From positions 1 to 42,675 of the forward strand of contig JAAYIF010000004.1 in the NCBI GenBank assembly GCA_012523575.1: DNA of 42,675 nucleotides, in the 5' to 3' direction. The translations under genes and the position numbers were made by a program. Under the pieces are notes generated by a model that saw only the letters and a program-made list of their open reading frames with translations, was not told the DNA's origin and did not search any database. The stretch comes from Clostridia bacterium (GTDB taxonomy: Bacteria; Bacillota; DTU086). Below are positions 3,000 through 40,776 of this stretch, one piece after another (the stretch's first letter is position 1; the number at the start of each line of letters is the position of its first letter).

Positions 3000-4460
3000 T
3001 TAAATTTTCTTTTTAGCTTCATCCCAAAGCCTGTCCATCTCTTCAAGTGACGCTTCTTTGGGCTCTTTTCCTTCTGCCTTAAGCCTTTCTTCCACATAAT
3101 TGAATCTTTCAATAAACTTATTCACGGTCCTTGAAAGGGCTTCCTCGGGATCAATATTCAGAAAGCGGGACAAATTAACCACGGAAAACAGAAGATCGCC
3201 CAATTCCGAAACCCTCTGCTCAAAGGAGCCTTCCTTCACTGCAGCCTTAAGCTCCCTCATCTCCTCCTCAATTTTGTCCCAAACCCCATCGATATGGGAC
3301 CAGTCAAAACCCACCCCGGCAGCCTTTTTTTGTATTTTTTCGGCACGGAGCAGCGCTGGGAGGCTTCGGGGCACATCGAACAGAGGCCTATCACTCTTTT
3401 CTTTCTGTTTTATCTTTTCCCAATTTTTATTAACATCGGAAACACTTTTTACCACCAGCGAACCGAACACGTGGGGATGCCTTCTTACTAGCTTTTCCTT
3501 TATTTCCTCAATGACTTCCGTAATGTCAAATTTTCCCTGTTCCTCTGCCACCCGGGCATGGAAGATAACCTGCAGTAGTAAGTCTCCCAATTCTTCTCTT
3601 AATTTATTCATGTCCCTTTCTTCTATGGCTTCTATTACCTCATAGGTTTCCTCAATGAGATAGCGCTTAAGGCTCTCGTGAGTCTGCTGCTTGTCCCAGG
3701 GACAGCCGTCAGGCCCCCTCAATCTTGCTAGGACCTCCACCAGACCTTCAAAGGCAGAATTTACATTTGTTTCCGCATATAATCTCAAAGATGGGACATA
3801 GAGGCTTGTGAGATGATCTATATCCTTTAACCTGTCCAACTCATAAAGGGGAATCTCCCGTATCCTTTCCTTCCCGCCAATCCCTGCATTCTGCACCACC
3901 TTTACGGTGTGCTCTTCGGGATACTCTTCCATAAGAAGAAGTTTTACTTCCGAAGCAATCCTCCTGTTGTAGAGCTGGATGCACAAAAGGGGAAAGGCCG
4001 GGTCTATTCTTTTATTCTGAAGCTCCAGACAGTCCACAACGGTAAGCCCCTGGGCAGGATCAATTTTTAACGCTGCATATACCGCCCCGAGGCAGCTCAC
4101 CGCAGGGAGTATTTCCACAGATATATCCGCAGTTTTAATGTTTAATAGCATTTCCACCGTTCTTTCCGCCACCATGGGGTGCCCCGGCACCCCATATACG
4201 ATTTCCCCTTCCTTTTCCGTTTCCTTTAGGAGAACCTCCACAATGGACCGGTATACTTCTTCGAAAGTTTCGCATTGTTCATACAGATAGTCAAAGCTTT
4301 CAAAGGGAATGTTTTCTTTAAGCAAATCTTCGGCAATGGGATGTTTTGCCGTTCTCAAATAAAGCTTTGGTTTATTTTTTAATAATCTGTAAGTACCCGT
4401 GGGCAAATGCTCTAATCCCCCGGGTCCAAGTCCCGCAGCAATAATTTTACCCAATTTCAT
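3000..4460 (-). CDS. mazG: Tetrapyrrole methylase-like/MazG fusion protein (YabN)
   Basis: A 486-residue fusion. Residues about 1-215 are a tetrapyrrole (SAM-dependent) methylase-like domain (GLGPGGLEHLPTG; VYGVPGHPMVAERT). Residues about 235-486 contain MazG nucleoside triphosphate pyrophosphohydrolase repeats. The first has the metal-binding motifs EETYEVIEA and EELGDLLLQ; the second has EEEMRELKAAV and SELGDLLFSVVN. MazG hydrolyses NTPs to NMP and pyrophosphate, probably for housecleaning. The same fusion is found as YabN in Bacillus, at the same chromosomal location. I prefer the ATG at 4460; a GTG lies one codon upstream. Neither has a strong ribosome binding site. Confidence 0.9.
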   Translation of the reverse strand: MKLGKIIAAGLGPGGLEHLPTGTYRLLKNKPKLYLRTAKHPIAEDLLKENIPFESFDYLYEQCETFEEVYRSIVEVLLKETEKEGEIVYGVPGHPMVAERTVEMLLNIKTADISVEILPAVSCLGAVYAALKIDPAQGLTVVDCLELQNKRIDPAFPLLCIQLYNRRIASEVKLLLMEEYPEEHTVKVVQNAGIGGKERIREIPLYELDRLKDIDHLTSLYVPSLRLYAETNVNSAFEGLVEVLARLRGPDGCPWDKQQTHESLKRYLIEETYEVIEAIEERDMNKLREELGDLLLQVIFHARVAEEQGKFDITEVIEEIKEKLVRRHPHVFGSLVVKSVSDVNKNWEKIKQKEKSDRPLFDVPRSLPALLRAEKIQKKAAGVGFDWSHIDGVWDKIEEEMRELKAAVKEGSFEQRVSELGDLLFSVVNLSRFLNIDPEEALSRTVNKFIERFNYVEERLKAEGKEPKEASLEEMDRLWDEAKKKI

Positions 4461-6712: not shown

Positions 6713-9700
6713 TTAATGTTTAACACCCTGTTCCCCAAGCCTTCTCAAAATTTCCTGGGCTGTTTCCACCAGCTCCCTTGCAGACAGGCCCTGTTTCCTA
6801 ATCTCTATTTCCAGCCCGCCAATGCTGGAAAATTTAAGCCGGCGGGGAAAATCCTTTGCCAAAAGCATGAGAACATCTCCCCGGATATAGGAGGCTTCTT
6901 CTTTAAATTTTATCTTTACTTCCTCCGCCGTTTCCTTTATTGATTTAACTCCCAAAGATTGGGCCAGAACCCTGAGCCTTGCTATTTCAAGAAGATTCTC
7001 CACTTCATGGGGCAGGGGCCCGAAGCGGTCCTCAAGCTCTTTCTTAAGCCCTTCGATTTCCTCTTCAGCTTCAATTTCCCTTAACCGGTGATACATTTCA
7101 AATTTCAAAGAGGGTTCCCCAATATATGCATCATCTATATAGGCATTTACCTGTAGCTCAATTTCCACCTTTTCTTCCTTGTCTTTTGCCTCTTCCTTCA
7201 CCTTACCCTTAAGCCGGGCCACTTCTTCCTCCAGCAGCTGACAGTACAGATCAAAGCCCACCGCCAGCATATGCCCGTGCTGCTCCGGTCCCAGAAGGTT
7301 GCCGGCCCCCCGAATTTCCAGATCCCTCATGGCCAGCTTAAATCCGGATCCAAATTCCGTAAACTCACTTATGGCATTGAGCCTTTTTTCGGCAATCTCA
7401 CTTAAAATCTTATCCCTCTTATAGGTAAAGTAGGCGTAGGCAACCCTGTCCGTCCTGCCCACCCTTCCCCTCAACTGGTAAAGCTGGGCAAGGCCGAAAT
7501 TGTCAGCCTCCTCCACGATTAAGGTATTAACATTGGGAATATCAAGGCCGTTTTCTACAATGGTGGTGCACACCAGGATGTCAATATCCCCCTGAATGAA
7601 ATCTACCATGATTTTTTCCAGCTGTCTTTCGGGCATCTGTCCGTGGGCCACACCCACCCTTGCCTCGGGAACCAGGGATTGGAGATCCACAGCTTTGGCC
7701 CCCAAATCCGCCACTTTATTGTGGACGTAAAACACCTGGCCTCCTCTGCCCAGTTCCCGCCGAACAACGTCTTTAATAAGCTCCCTGCTGTATTCCACCA
7801 CATAGGTCTGAACGGGATACCTGTTCTCGGGAGGGGTATTAATAACGCTCATATCCCTTGCTCCCGCCAGGGCCATGTGCAGGGTTCGGGGAATGGGAGT
7901 TGCCGTCAGGGTAAGAACATCCACTTCTCGGCGCAGACTTTTAAGCCTTTCCTTGTGCGCCACCCCGAAGCGCTGCTCCTCATCGATTATCAAAAGCCCC
8001 AAATCCTTAAACTGAACGTCTTTGGAGAGCAGACGGTGGGTTCCGATGATTATGTCAATAATGCCCTTTTTAAGCTCTTCCACCACTTTTTTCTGCTCCC
8101 CGGGCTTTTTCAGCCTGCTTAAAAATTCAATTTTTACAGGAAACTGGGAAAAGCGCTCCTTAAAGGTCCGGTAATGCTGATGGGCCAGCACAGTGGTGGG
8201 CACCAATACGGCAACCTGTTTTCCGTCGGTAACGGCCTTAAAGGCCGCCCTCATGGCCACCTCCGTTTTTCCGTACCCCACATCCCCCACCAGCAACCTA
8301 TCCATGGGTTTGGGTTTTTCCATATCCTCCTTTACCTCGGATATGGCCTTAAGCTGATCCGGGGTTTCTTTATAGGGAAAAGCCGCTTCAAATTCATCCT
8401 GCCATGGGCCGTTAGGGCTGAATGCATGCCCTTTAATGATCTGCCTTTCCGCATATAGATTCAAAAGCCCTTTGGCAAGCTCTTGAACCGACTTTCTTAC
8501 CTTCTCCTTGGCCCTTGCCCATTCGCTGCCGCCCAATTTATGGAGTTTGGGGGTATGGCCTTCGGCCCCGATGTACTTTTGGATAAGCTCCACTTGATCC
8601 GTAGGGACGTACAGCCTATCCTTCCCTTGGTACTGCAAATGAAGATAGTCCCTCTTTACCCCCTGAACCTCAAGGTTCACAATTCCCAGGTATTTTCCTA
8701 TCCCATGGTGCACGTGCACCACATAATCCCCGGGCTTTATGTCGGCAATATCGCTAATCCTTATTCCTTCCCCAAACTGCCCCTTGAGTCTGCGGCGCTT
8801 GGGCCTGCCGAAAATCTCCCGATCCGTAATCACCGCAAGCTTTTCCTGGGGCAGCTCAAAACCGGCACTTAAGGTACCGTAAGTTATCACAACCTGTCCG
8901 GGCTGAAGGGGGGAAGTCAAAGCCGGAACCAAAACCGCCTCTATCCTGTTGTCCCACAGGCTCTCCTTTAATCGCATCCCCCGATCCTTTGATGAGGTCA
9001 TGATAATCTGGGCATAGCCAGATCTTTTCCACTCAGCCAGCTGCTTCACCAGAAGTTTGGGCCTGCCCTGGAATTCAGGAAGGGTTCTTCCGTGAAAGCT
9101 AACGGTGGAGGAAACCCCAAAGCGTTCACTTTTTTTGGGCAGCAGAGAGAAATATACCCTGTAGGAGTCCTTTAAAGATTTTTCAAGTTCAGAAAAACCG
9201 AGGATAAGTTCTTTTTGCTTTGCAAGAAAGGAACCTTCCAGGAGAAGGTTTTCAAAGCTCATAGAAAGCTCCTTTTCCCTGGCTTGTGCCTCCTTTTCAA
9301 TCTGGAGGGGTTCATCAAAAAACACCGCAGGCCTTTTTTCAAAATAATCCATAAGGGTATAGGGCTTATCTGTAAAATAGGGCAGAAATCTTTCTAAATT
9401 TTCTGCAATTTCTGCCGCCGAGCCTGCCTCAACCCGCTCCAAAAACTCCCCCACTGTCCTGTCAAGCCTGTTTACGGCTTTCCTCTTTCCCTTTCGGCCC
9501 AATATATCCTTTGTCGCCTCCCAATCCTTCACAATTTCCTCCATACCCTTTTCCAGGCTTAAATCTTCGGAAAAGGGGAACTCCACCGCCGGAGGAATGG
9601 TTATTTCCGAAAGATCCTCCCTGGACAGCTGGGACTTGGAATCAAAGAGACGAATGGTCTCTATTTCATCGTCAAAAAAGTCAATTCTGCACGGGCTTTT

Positions 9701-32392: not shown

Positions 32393-33616
32393 ATGAACCA
32401 ACCGGGATCCATTGCGGAAAAGAAGTTTAAAATTAATACCCTGGGAAGCTTCTGCGTAGTGGTAAACGGCGAAGACGTAACCAGCGCTTTAAGTAAATCC
32501 GCAAAAGTGTGGGATCTTTTCAAATATCTCATCACCTTCAGGGACGAGCTTATCCTCCCGGAGAAAATCATCTCTTCCCTGTGGCCTGATGCCGACTACA
32601 CCGACCCCAAACGCACCTTAAGGGCCCTTATCTTCAGACTGCGCAGGGCGTTAAAACTGGGGGAAAAAAGCGGCAGTAACTGTATAATTGTGTCTTCCCA
32701 CGGTTGCTACAAGTTCGCAACCAAAGACTGCTGCGAGTTAGATGTGGTGGAATTTGAGAACGCCTTTCATAAAGCCTATGAACACAGGAGCAGAGATGAA
32801 GAAGAAAAAGCAGTGGAGCTCTTTAAAAAGTTAATTTATTTATACAAAGGGGAATACTTATCCCAAACGTACGGATACGACTGGCTTATTCCTGCTAGGA
32901 ACTACTACCGCCGCATGTTCCTCCAAAGCGTATGCGAAGTTTCGGAAATGCTGAGGGAGCGTAAGCAGTATGAAGAAATACTGTCAATATGCGAGCTTGC
33001 CCTCAAACACGAAATGTATGAGGAGCAAATCCACTTTTACTACATGGAAGCCCTGGCCGGCACAGGAAGGCTGAAGCAGGCCCGCAGCCACTACGAGCAC
33101 ATAGAGCGATTGTTTGAAAAAGAACTGGGGGTCAAGCCCTCTACATCCCTTGAGCGCCTGTACCGCATGCTCTTTGGCGAAGTAACAAAATCAGGGCTTG
33201 ATATAAGCTATATAAAAGAAGGCTTGCGGGAGGAAGCACTGCCCTGCGGTCCTGTATTCTGCGACAAGGAATTCTTCAAGACTTTGAGGATGCTGGAGAA
33301 AAGACGCGCTGAGCGCTATGGCCCCATGAACTTTTTGGGGCTTTTGACCATCACAAACCCCGACCGCTCCCTACCGGACCGCGCTACCCTTGATAAGGGC
33401 AGGAAGCTTTTGAAACAACTTCTTTTGAGCAACCTAAGGAAAGGGGACGTTGTAACGCAGTGGAATGAAGCCCAGTTTCTTTTGAGCTTACCGTCCCTTA
33501 ATGTAAAGCAGGCTGAAGTTGCCCTAAAGAGGATGCAGAAGAAGTTTGCCGCTTTGGAGAATAACCCTGGGCTTGTGGTGTATTATGATATAAAAGAGAC
33601 GCTGCCATCGGAATAA
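32393..33616 (+). CDS. SARP-type transcriptional regulator: winged helix, BTAD, degenerate GGDEF-like domain
   Basis: A 407-residue protein. Residues about 13-105 form an OmpR-like winged helix (KINTLGSFCVVVNG, LPEKIISSLWPDAD, RTLRALIFRLRRALK). Residues about 115-265 form the bacterial transcriptional activator domain (DVVEFENAFHKAYEH, ICELALKHEMYEEQIHFYYM, LGVKPSTSLERLYR). Residues about 305-400 resemble a GGDEF fold: SNLRKGDVVTQWNEAQFLLS aligns with LRxxDxVxRxGGDEFxxLLP, but GGDEF is replaced by NEAQF, so cyclase activity is very unlikely. Such a domain could still sense a nucleotide or partner. It lies at the head of the surface locus. Its likely targets are the 11-bp-period repeats at 33724 and 35661. 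A terminator follows. Confidence 0.85.
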   Translation: MNQPGSIAEKKFKINTLGSFCVVVNGEDVTSALSKSAKVWDLFKYLITFRDELILPEKIISSLWPDADYTDPKRTLRALIFRLRRALKLGEKSGSNCIIVSSHGCYKFATKDCCELDVVEFENAFHKAYEHRSRDEEEKAVELFKKLIYLYKGEYLSQTYGYDWLIPARNYYRRMFLQSVCEVSEMLRERKQYEEILSICELALKHEMYEEQIHFYYMEALAGTGRLKQARSHYEHIERLFEKELGVKPSTSLERLYRMLFGEVTKSGLDISYIKEGLREEALPCGPVFCDKEFFKTLRMLEKRRAERYGPMNFLGLLTITNPDRSLPDRATLDKGRKLLKQLLLSNLRKGDVVTQWNEAQFLLSLPSLNVKQAEVALKRMQKKFAALENNPGLVVYYDIKETLPSE

Positions 33617-33642: not shown

Positions 33643-33670
33643 GCCGGGCTTTGCGCCCGGCTTTTCTTTT
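33643..33670 (+). terminator. Intrinsic terminator after the BTAD regulator
   Basis: GCCGGGC-TTTGC-GCCCGGC followed by TTTTCTTTT, 26 bases after the stop. Confidence 0.9.
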
Positions 33671-33723
33671 GCATATACATAGGCTTGAAAAATTGTTTAA
33701 AAAAAACCGGAAATTTTTAAAAA

Positions 33724-33778
33724 TATAACGCAGATGGAATTTTCGTGTAACTGGCATATAACGGACGGATGCTAAACT
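33724..33778 (+). promoter_or_regulatory. Four 11-bp-spaced direct repeats upstream of the sipW unit, with -10
   Basis: TATAAC (33724), TGGAAT (33735), TGTAAC (33746) and TATAAC (33757) start exactly 11 bases apart. A -10-like TAAACT follows at 33773-33778, ten bases after the last repeat. SARP regulators bind direct repeats of one-helical-turn period overlapping the -35. The same array with the same spacing is at 35661-35715. Confidence 0.65.
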
Positions 33779-33806
33779 TGCAGTGAAGGTGCTGCAAGTT
33801 TTTTGT
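33775..33806 (+). terminator. Second terminator-like hairpin, overlapping the sipW promoter
   Basis: AACTTGCAG-TGAAGGTG-CTGCAAGTT followed by TTTTGTTTT. It overlaps the -10, so a transcript starting at this promoter would lack the left arm, whereas read-through from upstream would form the full hairpin. It may insulate sipW from the regulator gene. Confidence 0.55.
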
Positions 33807-33863
33807 TTTACGCAAGTTTTAAGTATGAAGACGGAATTCACGGAAACAAGGAGGCGGCATAAA

Positions 33864-34505
33864 TTGCCGGATCAAGTAGCAAAAAGAACGCCGAGAGAAA
33901 AAGGCTGGGGCATTTTAAGTAAGCTGTTCTCGCTGCTGGGAAATATCATCTTCGCGGCTTTACTCGTACTCATAGTATCCATGTTGTTTTTCATGTTCCA
34001 GCAGAAAAACACGGGAGAACCGCCTAAGGTTTTCGGCAGATACATGTACATAGTGTTGAGCGGTAGCATGTCACCAACCTTTGACACCGGAAGCTTGATC
34101 TTTGTGAAGCCCGTTGTTCCCGAAGAGATAAAAGAGGGTGATGTCATAACCTTCAGCAGCGAAAGCAGGGAGGCCCTGACCACCCACAGAGTTGTGGAGG
34201 TAAATAGAAGTGAAACGGGAGAGATAAGTTTCATCACCAAGGGGGACGCAAACGAAGTCAACGATCCTGCTCCTGTTCCGGGTGACAGGCTTGTGGGCCG
34301 GCTGAGTTTTTCGCTACCATACATGGGATACGTTTTAAACTTTGCCCAGACCAAAAAGGGTATGCTGGCACTCATTATAATCCCGGGTATTTTTGTCATA
34401 ACGCTGGAAATGAGCAAGCTGTATTTTGCCTCCAAAGCATCAAGGGAAGAAGAGGCAAAAGCAGGAGAAATCGCTGAGGAAAATAGGAGTACAGCCGATA
34501 GCTGA
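33864..34505 (+). CDS. sipW: SipW-type (ER-type) signal peptidase I
   Basis: A 213-residue membrane protease. Residues about 23-44 form a first membrane segment. The catalytic serine lies in VLSGSMSPTFDTGS (Ser about 68). The general base is a histidine in LTTHRVVEV (about 108) rather than lysine, the mark of ER/archaeal-type SipW enzymes. A second membrane segment lies around 165-185. SipW in Bacillus processes TasA and TapA, matrix fibre proteins; here several neighbours carry SipW-type signals. The start is TTG 33864: AAGGAGG lies nine bases upstream. The in-frame GTG 33783 and ATG 33825 have no ribosome binding site. It begins a unit headed by the SARP-type repeats. Confidence 0.9.
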   Translation: MPDQVAKRTPREKGWGILSKLFSLLGNIIFAALLVLIVSMLFFMFQQKNTGEPPKVFGRYMYIVLSGSMSPTFDTGSLIFVKPVVPEEIKEGDVITFSSESREALTTHRVVEVNRSETGEISFITKGDANEVNDPAPVPGDRLVGRLSFSLPYMGYVLNFAQTKKGMLALIIIPGIFVITLEMSKLYFASKASREEEAKAGEIAEENRSTADS

Positions 34506-34537
34506 CAAAGGGTGTTTGAACTGAAAGGGGGATCAGC

Positions 34538-34750
34538 ATGTCAGGTGTTGCCGGTTTTATCAGATCCAAAATATTCGCAGGTGTGCTTCTTGTAAGCATT
34601 GCAGCATTTGCCCTAGGCGGGGTCACGATGGCTTGGTTCACAGATGACAATGATATTTCCGAAAAGACCTTTAAGGCGGGGACTGTTGTAATCAATGCTG
34701 ACGATGACGAACCGATAGTAACGATGCCTAAAGGGGAAGGAAGTGGATAA
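34538..34750 (+). CDS. N-terminal half of a frameshifted TasA/camelysin-like protein
   Basis: Seventy codons encoding the SipW-type signal (IAAFALGGVTMAWFTDD) and the start of the mature domain (KTFKAGTVVINAD), typical of camelysin/TasA proteins. The paralogue at 37676 has the same segments (GGATMAWFTDD, TFTAGTVIVDAD) and continues into DNVTPGDC. Here the frame stops at 34750 while the matching DNVSPGDC is encoded one frame over, from 34743. A one-base shift near AAAGGGGAAGGAAG (34730-34743) explains this. AAAGGGGG lies eight bases before the ATG. It is directly downstream of sipW. It could be a recent mutation, an assembly error or a programmed shift. Confidence 0.75.
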   Translation: MSGVAGFIRSKIFAGVLLVSIAAFALGGVTMAWFTDDNDISEKTFKAGTVVINADDDEPIVTMPKGEGSG

Positions 34751-35636
34751 TGTCAGCCCGGGTGACTGTTTCACCGTTATCTGGGAGTTTGTAAACGAGG
34801 GCACCAGTGATGCCCAAATTAAGGTGAACTTAACGGAAATGTGGTCTAACTCTAAAACGAAACTTAGTGTCGACAACGTCTATTATTGCCCGGTGGAACC
34901 GGAAGACGGAAAAGGCTGGGTGATGGCTGACGACGAGGAAGGCAACATCTGGCTCTACTACGTTGATAAAAGCAGTGGGACCCTTGGCTCGGTACGTGGT
35001 ACATACAACCCTGATGATCCAGAAAAACCCCTTGAACCTGAGAAAGTAAAGCTCAAACTTGTTGTGGTCTTTGACAAAGAAAGCATAGACAACGACTACC
35101 AGAGTGCTACCTACACCATAGGCGGTAACGGCAGCAAAGTTATTGCCATCCAGGCCGCAAACAACGCACCCGATACCCAGTGGGATCAATGGCTTGAAGT
35201 AACAAAGGACGGGTATATTCCTAAGGAAGGCACAAAATCTCGTGAAAACTACGACTATTTCCACAACCCTGAAAAGCCCGGCTACTTCTCCGAATGCTGG
35301 ATTCACGCAAATGACCGCGATCCGGGTAAGATCATCGCTGATTTTTATCTCGATCAAGTTAAAGTAAGCAAGAATAAGTGGAAAGGAAAAGCGTGGACAA
35401 AGATCAGCGGTTGGATAAAGGGCTGTAGATACAGCAACGGCAAACTGGTCAGCGGCACCGTTAAGGCCACATTCCGTGTAAGCAAGGACGGCGTAACAAA
35501 AGAAACTACTGTCCCTCTTACCCTCAAAAACGGCAAGGTAAACTTCAATAATATAACTATCCACGGTGTAGCTGCGGATAATAACAGGGATGTTACGGTT
35601 ATCATTGGCGACATAAAAAAGAATGCGGGAGACTGA
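34743..35636 (+). CDS. C-terminal part of the frameshifted TasA/camelysin-like protein
   Basis: Starts at GTG 34743 and encodes 297 residues without a signal peptide. Residues 1-150 align with residues about 64-215 of the protein at 37676: DNVSPGDCFTVIWEFVNEGT versus DNVTPGDCAKVTWNIINNGT; YYCPVEPEDGKGWVM versus FFCPPEDSDWVM; NDYQSATYTIGGNGSKVIAIQA versus NDYQGKEYTLGAEGSIIEAVQA. Residues about 195-297 form a different, lysine-rich beta domain. The GTG overlaps the upstream stop by eight bases, with GGGGAAGG just before it, so independent initiation is possible, but the product could not be exported. Most likely one gene with 34538 before the frameshift. A functional fused gene would encode about 365 residues. 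Confidence 0.75.
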   Translation: MDNVSPGDCFTVIWEFVNEGTSDAQIKVNLTEMWSNSKTKLSVDNVYYCPVEPEDGKGWVMADDEEGNIWLYYVDKSSGTLGSVRGTYNPDDPEKPLEPEKVKLKLVVVFDKESIDNDYQSATYTIGGNGSKVIAIQAANNAPDTQWDQWLEVTKDGYIPKEGTKSRENYDYFHNPEKPGYFSECWIHANDRDPGKIIADFYLDQVKVSKNKWKGKAWTKISGWIKGCRYSNGKLVSGTVKATFRVSKDGVTKETTVPLTLKNGKVNFNNITIHGVAADNNRDVTVIIGDIKKNAGD

Positions 35637-35660
35637 AGTGTGGCCGAAAAACAACTGAAA

Positions 35661-35715
35661 CATAACTACAACATGATTCACGTGTAATGTATATGTAACC
35701 CATGAGCGGTAAGAT
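35661..35715 (+). promoter_or_regulatory. Second array of 11-bp-spaced direct repeats, with -10
   Basis: CATAAC (35661), CATGAT (35672, poor), TGTAAT (35683) and TGTAAC (35694) start exactly 11 bases apart. TAAGAT at 35710-35715 begins ten bases after the last repeat, identical to the spacing at 33724-33778. In both arrays the second repeat is the weakest. Transcription would start near 35722, after the in-frame ATG at 35702. Confidence 0.65.
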
Positions 35716-35755
35716 TGCATCAAGCACAGGTGGAGATGTGGGGGAGGAGGGCGGC

Positions 35756-36028
35756 ATGGTGCTAAAAGACAACCAAGGGGAGATGATGAAATATACCAGC
35801 AGAATCGGAGGTTCGACATTTCTTATCCGCATATATTTCAAGCAGCATGCTATCTGGCAGTGAACAATCCAGTGGCTTGAAGAGGATAAAACCGTTCCGT
35901 TCAGGAGCATTCTCGAACTGATTTTCCTTCTCAACGAAGCGGTGGACAAATACCTACCCTCTGAGGAGGGGCTTGGTTTCAGGTCATGGGAGAACATGGA
36001 TACCGGTGGACCTGTCTCGGCCGACTAA
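35756..36028 (+). pseudogene. Small conserved protein gene interrupted by an in-frame TGA
   Basis: From ATG 35756 (GGAGGAGG five bases upstream) the frame runs to TAA 36026-36028, 91 codons, with one internal TGA at 35861-35863 (codon 36). Read through, it gives GGSTFLIRIYFKQHAIWQ, stop, TIQWLEEDKTVPFRSILELI and a C-terminal helix. From memory, small clostridial proteins of this pattern (F.IR....HA.WQG.I.WLE...FRS.LEL) have a glycine at the stop position, so GGA to TGA would explain it. The function of that family is not known to me. It lies first in the second unit, before the Ser/Gly-rich protein. Either a nonsense mutation or a recoded stop. Confidence 0.65.
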
Positions 36029-36069
36029 AGGGACAGTTGGCCAGTATCAAGGCGAAAGGAGGAAGCGGA

Positions 36070-36789
36070 ATGACGGCAAATGAGGGCAGGACAGAAAAAA
36101 AAGTTCGTGCTCCCTGTCTTAAGAAGACAGCGAAGCTAACGGCAATTGCATTAATGGTAGCAGCATTTCTTGCCCACCCCTTCGGTCTTACAGAAACCCA
36201 ATCGTATTTTACAGACACAAAGAAATCTTATCCAGTAAAAATCATGCTCATAAAAGAAGTGCAAGAGACAGATTATGGAAACAACTTTCACGGAGGAGGA
36301 GGGTCAGGCTCAGGGGGTGGAGCAGCTCCTGGCCAAAGCTCAGGTGGAAGCGGTGGCAGCGGCAACCAGGTCGGTAATGAAGGTAGCTCAGGAAGCTCGG
36401 AACAGCCGGGGGCAGGTGGAAGTGCTTCTGACAGCACAGGATCCGGCTCTGATTCAACAGGCCCGGGCAGCAGCAGCGGTTCCGGAGGAGGTTCTGACAG
36501 CTCTTCATCTGACAGTGGAAGCTCAAGTGAAAGTTCATCATCTGACGGCGGTTCCGGCAGCAATTCCGGCAGCGACAGCGGAAGCTCGTCTTCTAGCAGC
36601 AGTTCAAGCGGCGACAGCGGAAGTTCATCATCCAGCGGCAGCGCTAGCGGAAGCAGTTCATCATCAGGCAGCAGTTCCGGCGGAGGCGGTTCATCATCTG
36701 ACGGCGGAGGGTCCTCGTCTAGCGGAGGCTCCGGCAGTGGGGGTTCTTCCTCTGGCGGAGGGTCTTCCGGGGACAATGGCGGCGAGTAG
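36070..36789 (+). CDS. Exported protein with SipW-type signal and Ser/Gly-rich low-complexity tail
   Basis: A 239-residue protein. Residues about 22-50 form a basic plus hydrophobic signal ending in LTETQSYFTDTKKS, resembling the SipW-type pattern (x-A/S-Y-F-T-D). About 25 ordinary residues follow, then residues about 75-239 consist almost only of Ser and Gly with some Asp, in loose repeats such as SSSDGGSGSNSGSDSG. Such tails form flexible stalks or are glycosylated. No sortase or membrane anchor is present at the C-terminus. ATG 36070 has AAAGGAGG seven bases upstream. Base composition in the tail makes long spurious frames on other strands. The function is unknown; a matrix or surface role is inferred from its neighbours. 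Confidence 0.75.
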   Translation: MTANEGRTEKKVRAPCLKKTAKLTAIALMVAAFLAHPFGLTETQSYFTDTKKSYPVKIMLIKEVQETDYGNNFHGGGGSGSGGGAAPGQSSGGSGGSGNQVGNEGSSGSSEQPGAGGSASDSTGSGSDSTGPGSSSGSGGGSDSSSSDSGSSSESSSSDGGSGSNSGSDSGSSSSSSSSSGDSGSSSSSGSASGSSSSSGSSSGGGGSSSDGGGSSSSGGSGSGGSSSGGGSSGDNGGE

Positions 36790-36831
36790 CGTGGTGCCCG
36801 TAAGGTAATTTCTCTGAAAGGAGTGTGCGGT

Positions 36832-37404
36832 GTGAAAAAGCAAATTGCTGCGAGCTTTGTGCTCATATTCCTCTTAAGCTTTTTGATAGGCGGTGCCACG
36901 CTTGCGTACTTCACCTCCGAAGACGACGTGGAAGGAACCAGCATGGATATGGGCAAGGTGAAGATTAACATCAAGAACATGAGCGGCGGCAAAGGAACAT
37001 CTCATTTAAGAAGCGGTGATAGCAAAGAAATTGAGTGGAAAATCGAAAACAAGAGCAGTATGCCGGTTTGGATAAGGGCAACCCTTCTGCAGGAGACGGA
37101 ACATTCCTCGCTCCACTGGGAAGTTATTTCCAGAGGATGGGCACAGGGAAAGAACGATGACTATTACTACTATAATAAACCCGTTCGCCCCAAAGACAGC
37201 GTCAGGATCAGGGTTAGGATAGACTATCTTGACTATGAAAATGAAATGGACGCTTTTGGGAGCGAGGTTGATGTTCTAAAAGGCGGCCCGCACTGTCCTT
37301 GGCCGCCCAGCGATGAGAAAGTATCATTAAAACTTCAGGCAGAAGCAATACAGGAAGCCCACGTTGATAATGAACAGTGGCCCGAAATCCCGCTTGATGA
37401 ATGA
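36832..37404 (+). CDS. Short camelysin/TasA-like exported protein
   Basis: A 190-residue protein. The signal region (about 1-28) ends in IGGATLAYFTSEDD, a SipW-type signal. The mature part has a beta-rich region (MGKVKINIKNMSG, IEWKIENKSSMPVWIRATLL) like camelysin domains, followed by a cysteine-containing loop (PHCPWPP) and an acidic end. It resembles the TapA-like companions of TasA in layout, but I cannot assign it to that family. GTG 36832 lies eight bases after AAAGGAG; an upstream GTG at 36823 overlaps the ribosome binding site. It follows the Ser/Gly-rich gene by 42 bases. Confidence 0.8.
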   Translation: MKKQIAASFVLIFLLSFLIGGATLAYFTSEDDVEGTSMDMGKVKINIKNMSGGKGTSHLRSGDSKEIEWKIENKSSMPVWIRATLLQETEHSSLHWEVISRGWAQGKNDDYYYYNKPVRPKDSVRIRVRIDYLDYENEMDAFGSEVDVLKGGPHCPWPPSDEKVSLKLQAEAIQEAHVDNEQWPEIPLDE

Positions 37405-37540
37405 AGGAAGCATTATAATCGCAGTTTTAGTCTTTATGACGGGGCACTAACAACATTATAAAAACAGAAGAAAGGGGGTTGGACGAAAAAGCGGTTTTAG
37501 GTGGTTCTTGATAAGAGAAGGCGTTGTAGCGTGGGAAGGA

Positions 37541-37618
37541 TAAGGGCAAACTTGTCGAAAGGCAGGGGCGCAAAGCTATAGGGCCTTTCTATAAATAGAA
37601 TGGTAGCCTGGCTGCCGA
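37541..37618 (+). ncRNA. Cyclic di-GMP-I (GEMM) riboswitch, copy A
   Basis: Contains the GEMM core AGGGCAAACTTGTCGAAAGG, then GGGGCGCAAAGC, and ends in the second-stem segment GGTAGCCTGGCTGCC. The GAAA tetraloop and its receptor-side stem are present. It differs from consensus at GGGGCGCAAAG (usually GGACGCAAAG). It lies 58 bases before the TasA-like gene at 37676. No clear terminator follows, so control may act on translation or RNA stability. Confidence 0.85.
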
Positions 37619-37675
37619 GGGAATTGCTGATTTTGAAAATTTAAAAGACTATTCAAAAACGGGAGGTATGGAAAC

Positions 37676-38758
37676 ATGAAAAACCTTTTTAAGTCAAGAT
37701 CAACAATGATGAGCCTTTTACTCATAGGCCTTGCTGCCATAATAATAGGCGGCGCAACAATGGCATGGTTTACGGATGACGCAGATGTCGCAGATGCCAC
37801 TTTTACCGCAGGTACTGTTATTGTTGACGCCGATGAGGCCAATATTCAAGTACCTGAAGGCAAGTATTTCGACAATGTTACCCCCGGAGACTGTGCAAAG
37901 GTAACATGGAATATAATCAACAACGGTACAAAAGCTGTAGAACTCAGGGCAAAAATAACAGAAGCCTGGGAAGGTGGACTTTCCACTGACAACGTATTCT
38001 TCTGCCCGCCTGAAGACAGCGACTGGGTTATGTATGAAGATGATAACGGCGATATCTGGCTCTATTACACCGGCGGTCCTGTTCCCGGAACATACGGTGG
38101 AGCAAGTGAAGAGGAAAGAACTGTTCCTTTGACCCTCGTTGTAGGCTTTGACGGTGAACTTACAGATAACGATTATCAAGGCAAAGAGTACACCCTGGGT
38201 GCAGAAGGCAGTATAATCGAAGCTGTTCAAGCTTCAAACGGTGCACCTGAAGCTGTCTGGGGAGAAGTATGGAACACTGTTACTGATCCTAACTATGATT
38301 TTACAGGGCTTGCCAATGCAGCTTACTTCTACAGCGGCAATGGAAACGATATGCCCTGCTGGAATGGTGAAAACAATGGCGACAACGGCGGCGGAGATAA
38401 TGATAATCCGCAAATTTCCTTCGGAATAGAACTGAAATCAGTAAAAGCTGTAGATAGTAACATGTATGGCACTTATCTAAATACCGAAGTGGAGTTTAAG
38501 GTTGTAGACATGACGATAAACGGTGAGAAATTCACTGGCAATAAGGATCTTAATATCAAAGTGAGATGCAAAGATGGCTACTCCGGCAGCCCGCTAGGTT
38601 GGGGTGAATGGCAAGAATTTGACAGAAACAATGTAAGCTTTACTGACGGAGAAAGTAATCAAATAACTGTTAAATATTTAGGCAGAGCAACCAATAGCAT
38701 GGCTGACATTCAGGTTTCTATCGACGGTCATGTAGTCACTTTGCCTTATGAGTCCTAG
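37676..38758 (+). CDS. TasA/camelysin-like surface protein with extra C-terminal domain
   Basis: A 360-residue protein. Residues 1-28 are a SipW-type signal (AAIIIGGATMAWFTDDAD). The camelysin/TasA-like domain spans about 29-215 (TFTAGTVIVDADEANIQVP, FFCPPEDSDWVMYEDDNGD). A Gly/Asp/Asn-rich linker (NNGDNGGGDNDN) lies near residue 235-245, followed by a separate beta-type domain of about 115 residues (SFGIELKSVKAVDSN). TasA-like proteins polymerise into extracellular fibres; that role is inferred here. It is preceded by c-di-GMP riboswitch A and followed by a GC-rich hairpin. It is the intact paralogue of the frameshifted gene at 34538-35636. Confidence 0.85.
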   Translation: MKNLFKSRSTMMSLLLIGLAAIIIGGATMAWFTDDADVADATFTAGTVIVDADEANIQVPEGKYFDNVTPGDCAKVTWNIINNGTKAVELRAKITEAWEGGLSTDNVFFCPPEDSDWVMYEDDNGDIWLYYTGGPVPGTYGGASEEERTVPLTLVVGFDGELTDNDYQGKEYTLGAEGSIIEAVQASNGAPEAVWGEVWNTVTDPNYDFTGLANAAYFYSGNGNDMPCWNGENNGDNGGGDNDNPQISFGIELKSVKAVDSNMYGTYLNTEVEFKVVDMTINGEKFTGNKDLNIKVRCKDGYSGSPLGWGEWQEFDRNNVSFTDGESNQITVKYLGRATNSMADIQVSIDGHVVTLPYES

Positions 38759-40338: not shown

Positions 40339-40442
40339 TAAAATTTCTGATTTTTTTCTAAAAAAATTTTGTTTTTTCTGGTGTTTTTTACCTGTGTGTG
40401 CTAAAATAGGTAAGTGGGAGTAAGTAAAAGTAAATAGGTACT

Positions 40443-40530
40443 GAAAAAGGCAAACCTACCGAAAGGTAGGGACGCAAAGCCACGAGTCTAAGGTTTTAAA
40501 GTTTTTTAAAACTATGATGGTCGGGCTGCC
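40443..40530 (+). ncRNA. Cyclic di-GMP-I (GEMM) riboswitch, copy B
   Basis: Close to the GEMM consensus: AAGGCAAACC, the GAAA tetraloop (CCGAAAGG), GGGACGCAAAGCCACGAGTC, a long second stem (TTTTAAAG.TTTTTTAAAA) and the 3' segment GGTCGGGCTGCC. It begins about 105 bases after the sortase stop. The next 12 bases (CCAGTAAGAATT) mimic the right arm of the terminator that follows. Confidence 0.92.
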
Positions 40531-40555
40531 AGTAAGAATTAAGCGTTTAGCACAG

Positions 40556-40603: not shown

Positions 40604-40666
40604 CAAGTGCGCGGCCGCTGGTAGGAGCGGACTTTTCCTTCTCCTATCCTTCAGGCCTGGCACTTG
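40604..40666 (+). ncRNA. Structured linker between riboswitches B and C
   Basis: Nested stems: CAAGTGC/GCACTTG outermost, GGCC/GGCC next, and TAGGAG/CTCCTA innermost with a 13-base loop. It ends where aptamer C begins, so it could fold between the two aptamers. No known RNA family recognised; a NotI site (GCGGCCGC) lies inside. Confidence 0.45.
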
Positions 40667-40743
40667 AAAAAGGCAAACCTGTCGAAAGGCAGGGACGCAA
40701 AGTCGCGAGTCTAAGGCCTTCGGGCTATGACAGTCGGACTGCC
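40665..40743 (+). ncRNA. Cyclic di-GMP-I (GEMM) riboswitch, copy C
   Basis: AAGGCAAACC, CGAAAGG, GGGACGCAAAGTCGCGAGTC and CAGTCGGACTGCC match the aptamer. The first half is nearly identical to copy B (recent duplication). It lies just 36 bases before the gene at 40780. Confidence 0.92.
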
Positions 40744-40776
40744 AAGTAAAACTTCCACAAAAATAAGTGGAAAGGC
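40741..40776 (+). promoter_or_regulatory. Possible ribosome-binding-site hairpin after riboswitch C
   Basis: CTTCCAC pairs with GTGGAAAG, and the aptamer's last bases GCC can extend it with GGC. The right arm contains GGAAAGG, the best Shine-Dalgarno candidate for the gene at 40780. Formation of the aptamer's closing stem would compete for GCC. Confidence 0.45.

Follow-up and report, generated by a model that had tools for sequence, protein, structure and literature searches.

Candidate SARP-type operator arrays at two SipW/camelysin surface-gene promoters of a Clostridia bacterium, downstream of a BTAD regulator gene with a degenerate GGDEF domain

SARPs are known as actinobacterial antibiotic activators, and surface-fibre operons of the SipW/camelysin kind build biofilm matrix. 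In SARP promoters, direct repeats recur at a distance of 11 or 22 bp and the final one lies 8 bp from the -10 element, and the SARP AfsR binds as a side-by-side dimer over positions -40 to -19, on repeats at -40/-30 and -29/-19, with R92 contacting a conserved T (PMC10936776). Our search of an open-access library turned up no publication that connects BTAD to sipW, TasA, camelysin or GGDEF.

We analyzed a window of 42,675 nucleotides (contig JAAYIF010000004.1 of the Clostridia bacterium assembly GCA_012523575.1), for which the original prediction had proposed that two arrays of direct repeats are operators of a SARP/BTAD regulator encoded just upstream of the first array; all features described below lie on the forward strand. 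The regulator gene (32393–33616) encodes 407 amino acids comprising an OmpR-type DNA-binding domain, a BTAD and a degenerate GGDEF domain; no further BTAD gene was found in the genome. In the Pfam comparison BTAD (PF03704) was matched over the cut-off (1.6e-17), Trans_reg_C was matched just below its curated cut-off of 26.2 (25.4 bits, E 1.5e-5; above the cut-off in the relative L032), and GGDEF was matched weakly (5.7e-4). A profile built from 13 relatives matched AfsR, and the last third of this profile matched GGDEF structures. Similarly, the predicted regulator structure (mean pLDDT 84.9) matched AfsR, EmbR and several diguanylate cyclases at probability 1.00, the cyclase matches indicating that the last third of the regulator is GGDEF-like. 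Both domains expected of a SARP, the OmpR-type domain and BTAD, are present, and the degenerate GGDEF domain is an addition to the earlier description. Among the AfsR helix 3 contacts, R87, R92 and R94 are kept, while K95 is replaced by R, T88 by A and S91 by F; the R92 equivalent is present in 20 of 21 operator-positive loci and in 28 of 38 other loci (p 0.08).

Array 1 (33724–33762) consists of TATAAC at 33724, TGGAAT at 33735, TGTAAC at 33746 and TATAAC at 33757, which agree with TRTAAC at six, four, six and six of the six positions, respectively, and it is followed after ten bases by the -10 element TAAACT (33773–33778), which is preceded by TGC (extended -10) and from which a start near 33785 is predicted. 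Array 2 (35661–35699) consists of CATAAC at 35661 (5/6), CATGAT at 35672 (3/6), TGTAAT at 35683 (5/6) and TGTAAC at 35694 (6/6), again followed after ten bases by a -10 element, TAAGAT (35710–35715), with a predicted start near 35722. Re-reading the sequence, we recovered all four hexamers of each array at the coordinates and 11-base period originally given, together with the ten-base distance to the -10 in both; the second repeat was likewise found to be the weakest in both arrays, as it also is in the relative L043 (TAAAAT twice). With total scores of 22/24 and 19/24, the two arrays rank first and second among all 11-bp TRTAAC arrays on both strands of the window, and steps of 9, 10, 12 or 13 bp gave no array scoring above 18 in the window. 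In first-order Markov shuffles, a score of 19 was reached about 0.02 times per window and a score of 22 never. Across the 1.6 Mb genome, the array plus -10 pattern with at most three mismatches has exactly two matches, arrays 1 and 2, and the reversed control has none; a looser two-repeat pattern again returned only these two arrays. A sigma-70 consensus scan detected neither array promoter, in keeping with a poor -35. A further run at 37435, described originally as weaker and without the same -10 spacing, indeed proved partial; we rejected it as a third operator, since the -10 spacing is absent and it fails the site score, and the TATAAA it contains at 37457 may instead serve the riboswitch leader as -10 element.

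Conservation in relatives had been set beforehand as a check of the arrays. Among the relatives that possess the locus, the closest is L043, which belongs to the same family and has a 61% identical sipW; it keeps both arrays in the same two places (L043:834 and L043:3248), each followed by ten bases and then by TACACT and TAAACT, respectively; between L043 and the window, hexamer positions 3–5 of the strong repeats are unchanged and position 2 swaps A and G. In L041, whose regulator is 60% identical, about eight units follow the BTAD gene, the last of them ten bases before TAAATT, and in L044 (36% identical) two TGTAAC repeats are followed by ten bases and then TAAGAT. The same-genus genome G001 is without sipW and contains only a broken fragment resembling the regulator.

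The same geometry was recovered from loci that had played no part in forming the hypothesis. A search of the phylum returned about 60 full-length relatives of the regulator, including 41 fresh loci, of which a few share the genus of L044, so that the 41 are not wholly independent of the earlier set. In the non-coding DNA downstream of the BTAD stop codon, we fitted 63 combinations of period (8–14) and -10 spacer (6–14) with free hexamer content. The best model had period 11, spacer 10 and hexamer TGTAAC (log-likelihood 93.6 in the 41 fresh loci); the models ranked 2–6 were period 11 in shifted frames, the best other period reached 47.1, and all models but the top five averaged 30.6 (sd 8.2). 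With weights learned on the same 41 loci that were scored, a site score of at least 10 was obtained in 12 of them, compared with none of 61 reversed regions, none of 62 regions lying 5' of the gene and none of 62 such 5' regions when reversed. At a score of at least 8 the number rose only to 17 of 41, some relatives having no site or another hexamer. When the whole fetched loci were scanned, most of the strong sites were located immediately 3' of a BTAD gene. A motif search over 46 columns, run without guidance, had locked onto the coding start of a small ORF instead of the operator and thereby revealed that ORF, whose coding part was cut out before the de novo fit.

To which of its neighbors the site belongs can be judged from sipW/M73 operons with and without a nearby regulator gene. 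The site is carried by 9 of 13 such operons with a BTAD neighbor and by 1 of 15 without (p = 0.001), the lone exception being weak, indicating that the site follows the regulator gene and not the sipW operon. This count leaves out L194, L198 and L211, which have a site and no BTAD gene in view and are cut by contig ends, the genomes G313 and G218 carrying a BTAD gene at another contig end; the sipW genome G153, with no BTAD match at the search threshold, is uninformative, its locus ending at a contig edge. On the genome level, 118 of the 399 genomes contain the pattern, with 257 real matches against 74 in reversed controls; its association with the regulator is only weak (23 of 56 genomes with it, 95 of 343 without; p = 0.057), as repeats of this kind serve other regulators too. 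Whether a genome contains the pattern at all was therefore discarded as a test of the regulator, being too unspecific to decide. The motif by itself is not exclusive to the regulator; what counts as evidence is that it lies next to the BTAD gene. TGTRAC sites with 11-bp spacing were also seen clustered in G091 (contig 9, eight in 25 kb) and G151 (contig 24, four in about 8 kb), which suggests that an OmpR-type or BTAD regulator of some kind has local regulons there. A separate arrangement in L048 of G054 (3900–4154) comprises a short BTAD paralogue, then a TGTCAC/TAACAC 11-bp array, a -10 element ten bases further on, and a cobalamin riboswitch.

The regulator gene is followed by an intrinsic terminator-like hairpin (33643–33671), and a second terminator-like hairpin (33774–33801; -13.7 kcal/mol, z -3.6) overlaps the -10 element of array 1. 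The latter can form in read-through RNA and not in RNA started near 33785, and would insulate sipW from the upstream gene; array 2 has no counterpart of it. Downstream of array 1 lie a sipW-like signal peptidase gene, identified from sequence and Pfam (33864–34505, with a likely TTG start at 33864 behind GGAGG), and an M73/camelysin-like surface protein gene (34538–35636, Pfam) in two frames (34538–34750 and 34743–35636), apparently frameshifted near 34740 and a single frame in L043. Array 2 is followed by a small ORF (35756–36028) with an in-frame TGA at 35861, an ORF for a Gly/Ser-rich secreted protein (35986–36789) and an M73/camelysin-like gene (36823–37404, Pfam). Relatives of the small ORF (L041, L043, L097 and others) are open at the TGA position and encode a conserved BTAD-linked protein of 60–90 amino acids without a Pfam family; this protein is encoded at 9 of the 13 sipW loci that have BTAD and at none of the 15 that lack it (p = 0.0004, computed with 8 of 13). 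Both array-driven units thus look damaged, unless the split M73 gene and the broken small ORF are assembly errors. Beside relatives of the regulator, the genes downstream of the site mostly encode the 60–90 amino acid protein, SipW, M73, sortase and other secreted proteins.

WalR/YycF and PhoB-type response regulators also bind 11-bp direct repeats, those of WalR being of the TGTWAH type. We weighed whether it is one of these regulators that reads the arrays. The WalR consensus TGTWAH-N5-TGTWAH (PMC9210968) fits repeats 3–4 of array 2, WalR is reported in all Firmicutes, and the pattern also occurs in genomes without the BTAD regulator. However, an adjacent TGTWAH pair is absent from array 1, and the sites beside many BTAD relatives (TGTGAC, TAAGAC, TGTCAC, TGCAAC) do not fit the consensus. 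Moreover, the sites track the BTAD gene, as described above for the sipW operons, and the pattern occurs only twice in the genome, both times here, whereas a WalR regulon built on such sites would need more. WalR/YycF and PhoB-type regulators further differ from the regulator in their receiver domain, phosphorylation and other targets. In L147, L148, L153 and L154, repeats of a related but distinct class, TGTAATATT-N2-TGTAATATT, followed by TATAAT after ten bases, stand before biotin-ligase-like genes and, in L154, before the gene of a WalR-like response regulator. This class speaks for WalR involvement, and it may be the true WalR class. Overall, we consider it quite improbable that the arrays belong to WalR or another PhoB-type response regulator.

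Two further explanations concern what the repeats are and what they do. The hexamers are AT-rich and the second repeats match poorly, as would be expected of chance sequence or of a by-product of promoter composition, but this is contradicted by the shuffles, the genome-wide uniqueness of the arrays, their conservation and the de novo result in fresh loci, and we regard it as extremely improbable. That the regulator is a repressor, or that the arrays act in RNA with the 33774 hairpin as attenuator, is suggested by the strong terminator-like hairpin overlapping the array 1 -10 element. Given that array 2 has no such hairpin, that RNA started near 33785 cannot form it and that the fixed -10 spacing, at an activator position, fits activation, repression or attenuation appears very unlikely.

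Taken together, conservation in L043, the geometry found de novo, the near-zero controls, the lack of the site in sipW loci without BTAD and the AfsR layout support the reading originally put forward, and arrays 1 and 2 are very probably operators of the SARP-type regulator encoded at 32393–33616. The features of SARP operators present here are 11-bp direct repeats, a last hexamer 10 bp from the -10 and an overlapped -35; if the -10 is placed at -12 to -7, hexamers three and four of each array occupy -39/-34 and -28/-23, so that they lie within the AfsR repeats and agree with that layout to about one base. The system resembles AfsR and other SARPs (PMC10936776, PMC4393881) in the OmpR-type domain plus BTAD, the 11-bp direct repeats, a last repeat near the -10, repeats over a poor -35 and the key contact arginines R87, R92 and R94, though not in T88, which is alanine here. 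It differs from them in the non-actinobacterial host, in the hexamer (TGTAAC/TATAAC), in the four to eight repeats of close kin, in the sipW/M73 surface-gene targets and in a C-terminal degenerate GGDEF domain instead of NOD-TPR. EmbR of Mycobacterium tuberculosis, the next-best fold match after AfsR, similarly combines SARP domains with a further domain, which is FHA in EmbR and GGDEF here. These similarities suggest a model in which regulator monomers would line up head to tail on one DNA face, one per 11-bp repeat, with the last two repeats covering the -35 region and ending 10 bp before the -10, as in the AfsR geometry. The regulator would thereby make up for the lack of a -35 and bring RNA polymerase to two units, that of sipW (predicted start near 33785) and the second surface unit (predicted start near 35722).

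The C-terminal domain combines an I-site-like LRKGD (R349xxD352) with a lost active site, NEAQF standing for GG(D/E)EF (33434–33478). Comparing the 61 relatives having this domain, we found the GG(D/E)EF motif in none and the I-site RxxD in 60, although RxxD is not rare, being present in 4 of 5 canonical GGDEF proteins of this genome, which encodes seven GGDEF proteins over the cut-off. Per residue, R349 is kept in 60, D352 in 61 and R380 in 57 of 60, and they are among the most conserved of the domain. PelD of Bacillus cereus has a degenerate GGDEF domain too, in which the corresponding RxxD, together with a distant Arg, binds c-di-GMP (PMC7112168). The regulator is like PelD-type receptors in the lost GG(D/E)EF, the kept RxxD and the distant Arg (here R349, D352 and R380), and differs from them in that its degenerate GGDEF domain, for which c-di-GMP binding is predicted, is fused to a putative transcription activator. 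That this domain gates the regulator through c-di-GMP is a hypothesis for which we judge the chances to be about equal either way.

As a separate layer of control, a c-di-GMP-I-GGC riboswitch match (37536–37620) precedes the M73 gene at 37676. A riboswitch of this class lies closely 5' of an M73/camelysin gene in six loci (the window, L032, L041, L097, L099 and L115), and in L113 the M73 gene is preceded by a c-di-GMP-I riboswitch. In addition, tandem c-di-GMP-I riboswitches (40439–40533 and 40662–40746) precede a transglutaminase-like gene, the L041 homologue of which has the same pair, and in L097 the BTAD gene itself has a c-di-GMP-II riboswitch (7757–7839) some 0.7 kb upstream.

Overall, the best reading of these comparisons is that the regulator is a SARP-type activator of SipW/camelysin fibre operons, possibly c-di-GMP-gated. 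Judged from sequence, the module is of a known, SARP-type kind, and the comparisons support the taxonomic setting, the targets and the sensory domain as its new features. A SARP-type promoter code is thereby read in dozens of genomes outside the actinobacterial phylum, and operons for surface fibres are assigned to it, which yields a predicted binding site and a predicted regulon, and the kept I-site provides a testable link from c-di-GMP to matrix gene transcription. It is an evenly balanced proposition that we are dealing with a widespread and undescribed family of SARP-type activators in the phylum, which would sense c-di-GMP via a dead GGDEF domain and switch on SipW/camelysin (TasA-like) operons through TGTAAC arrays, with riboswitches controlling further M73 genes. 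If this were true, a single messenger would act on the locus twice, at the promoter and in RNA.
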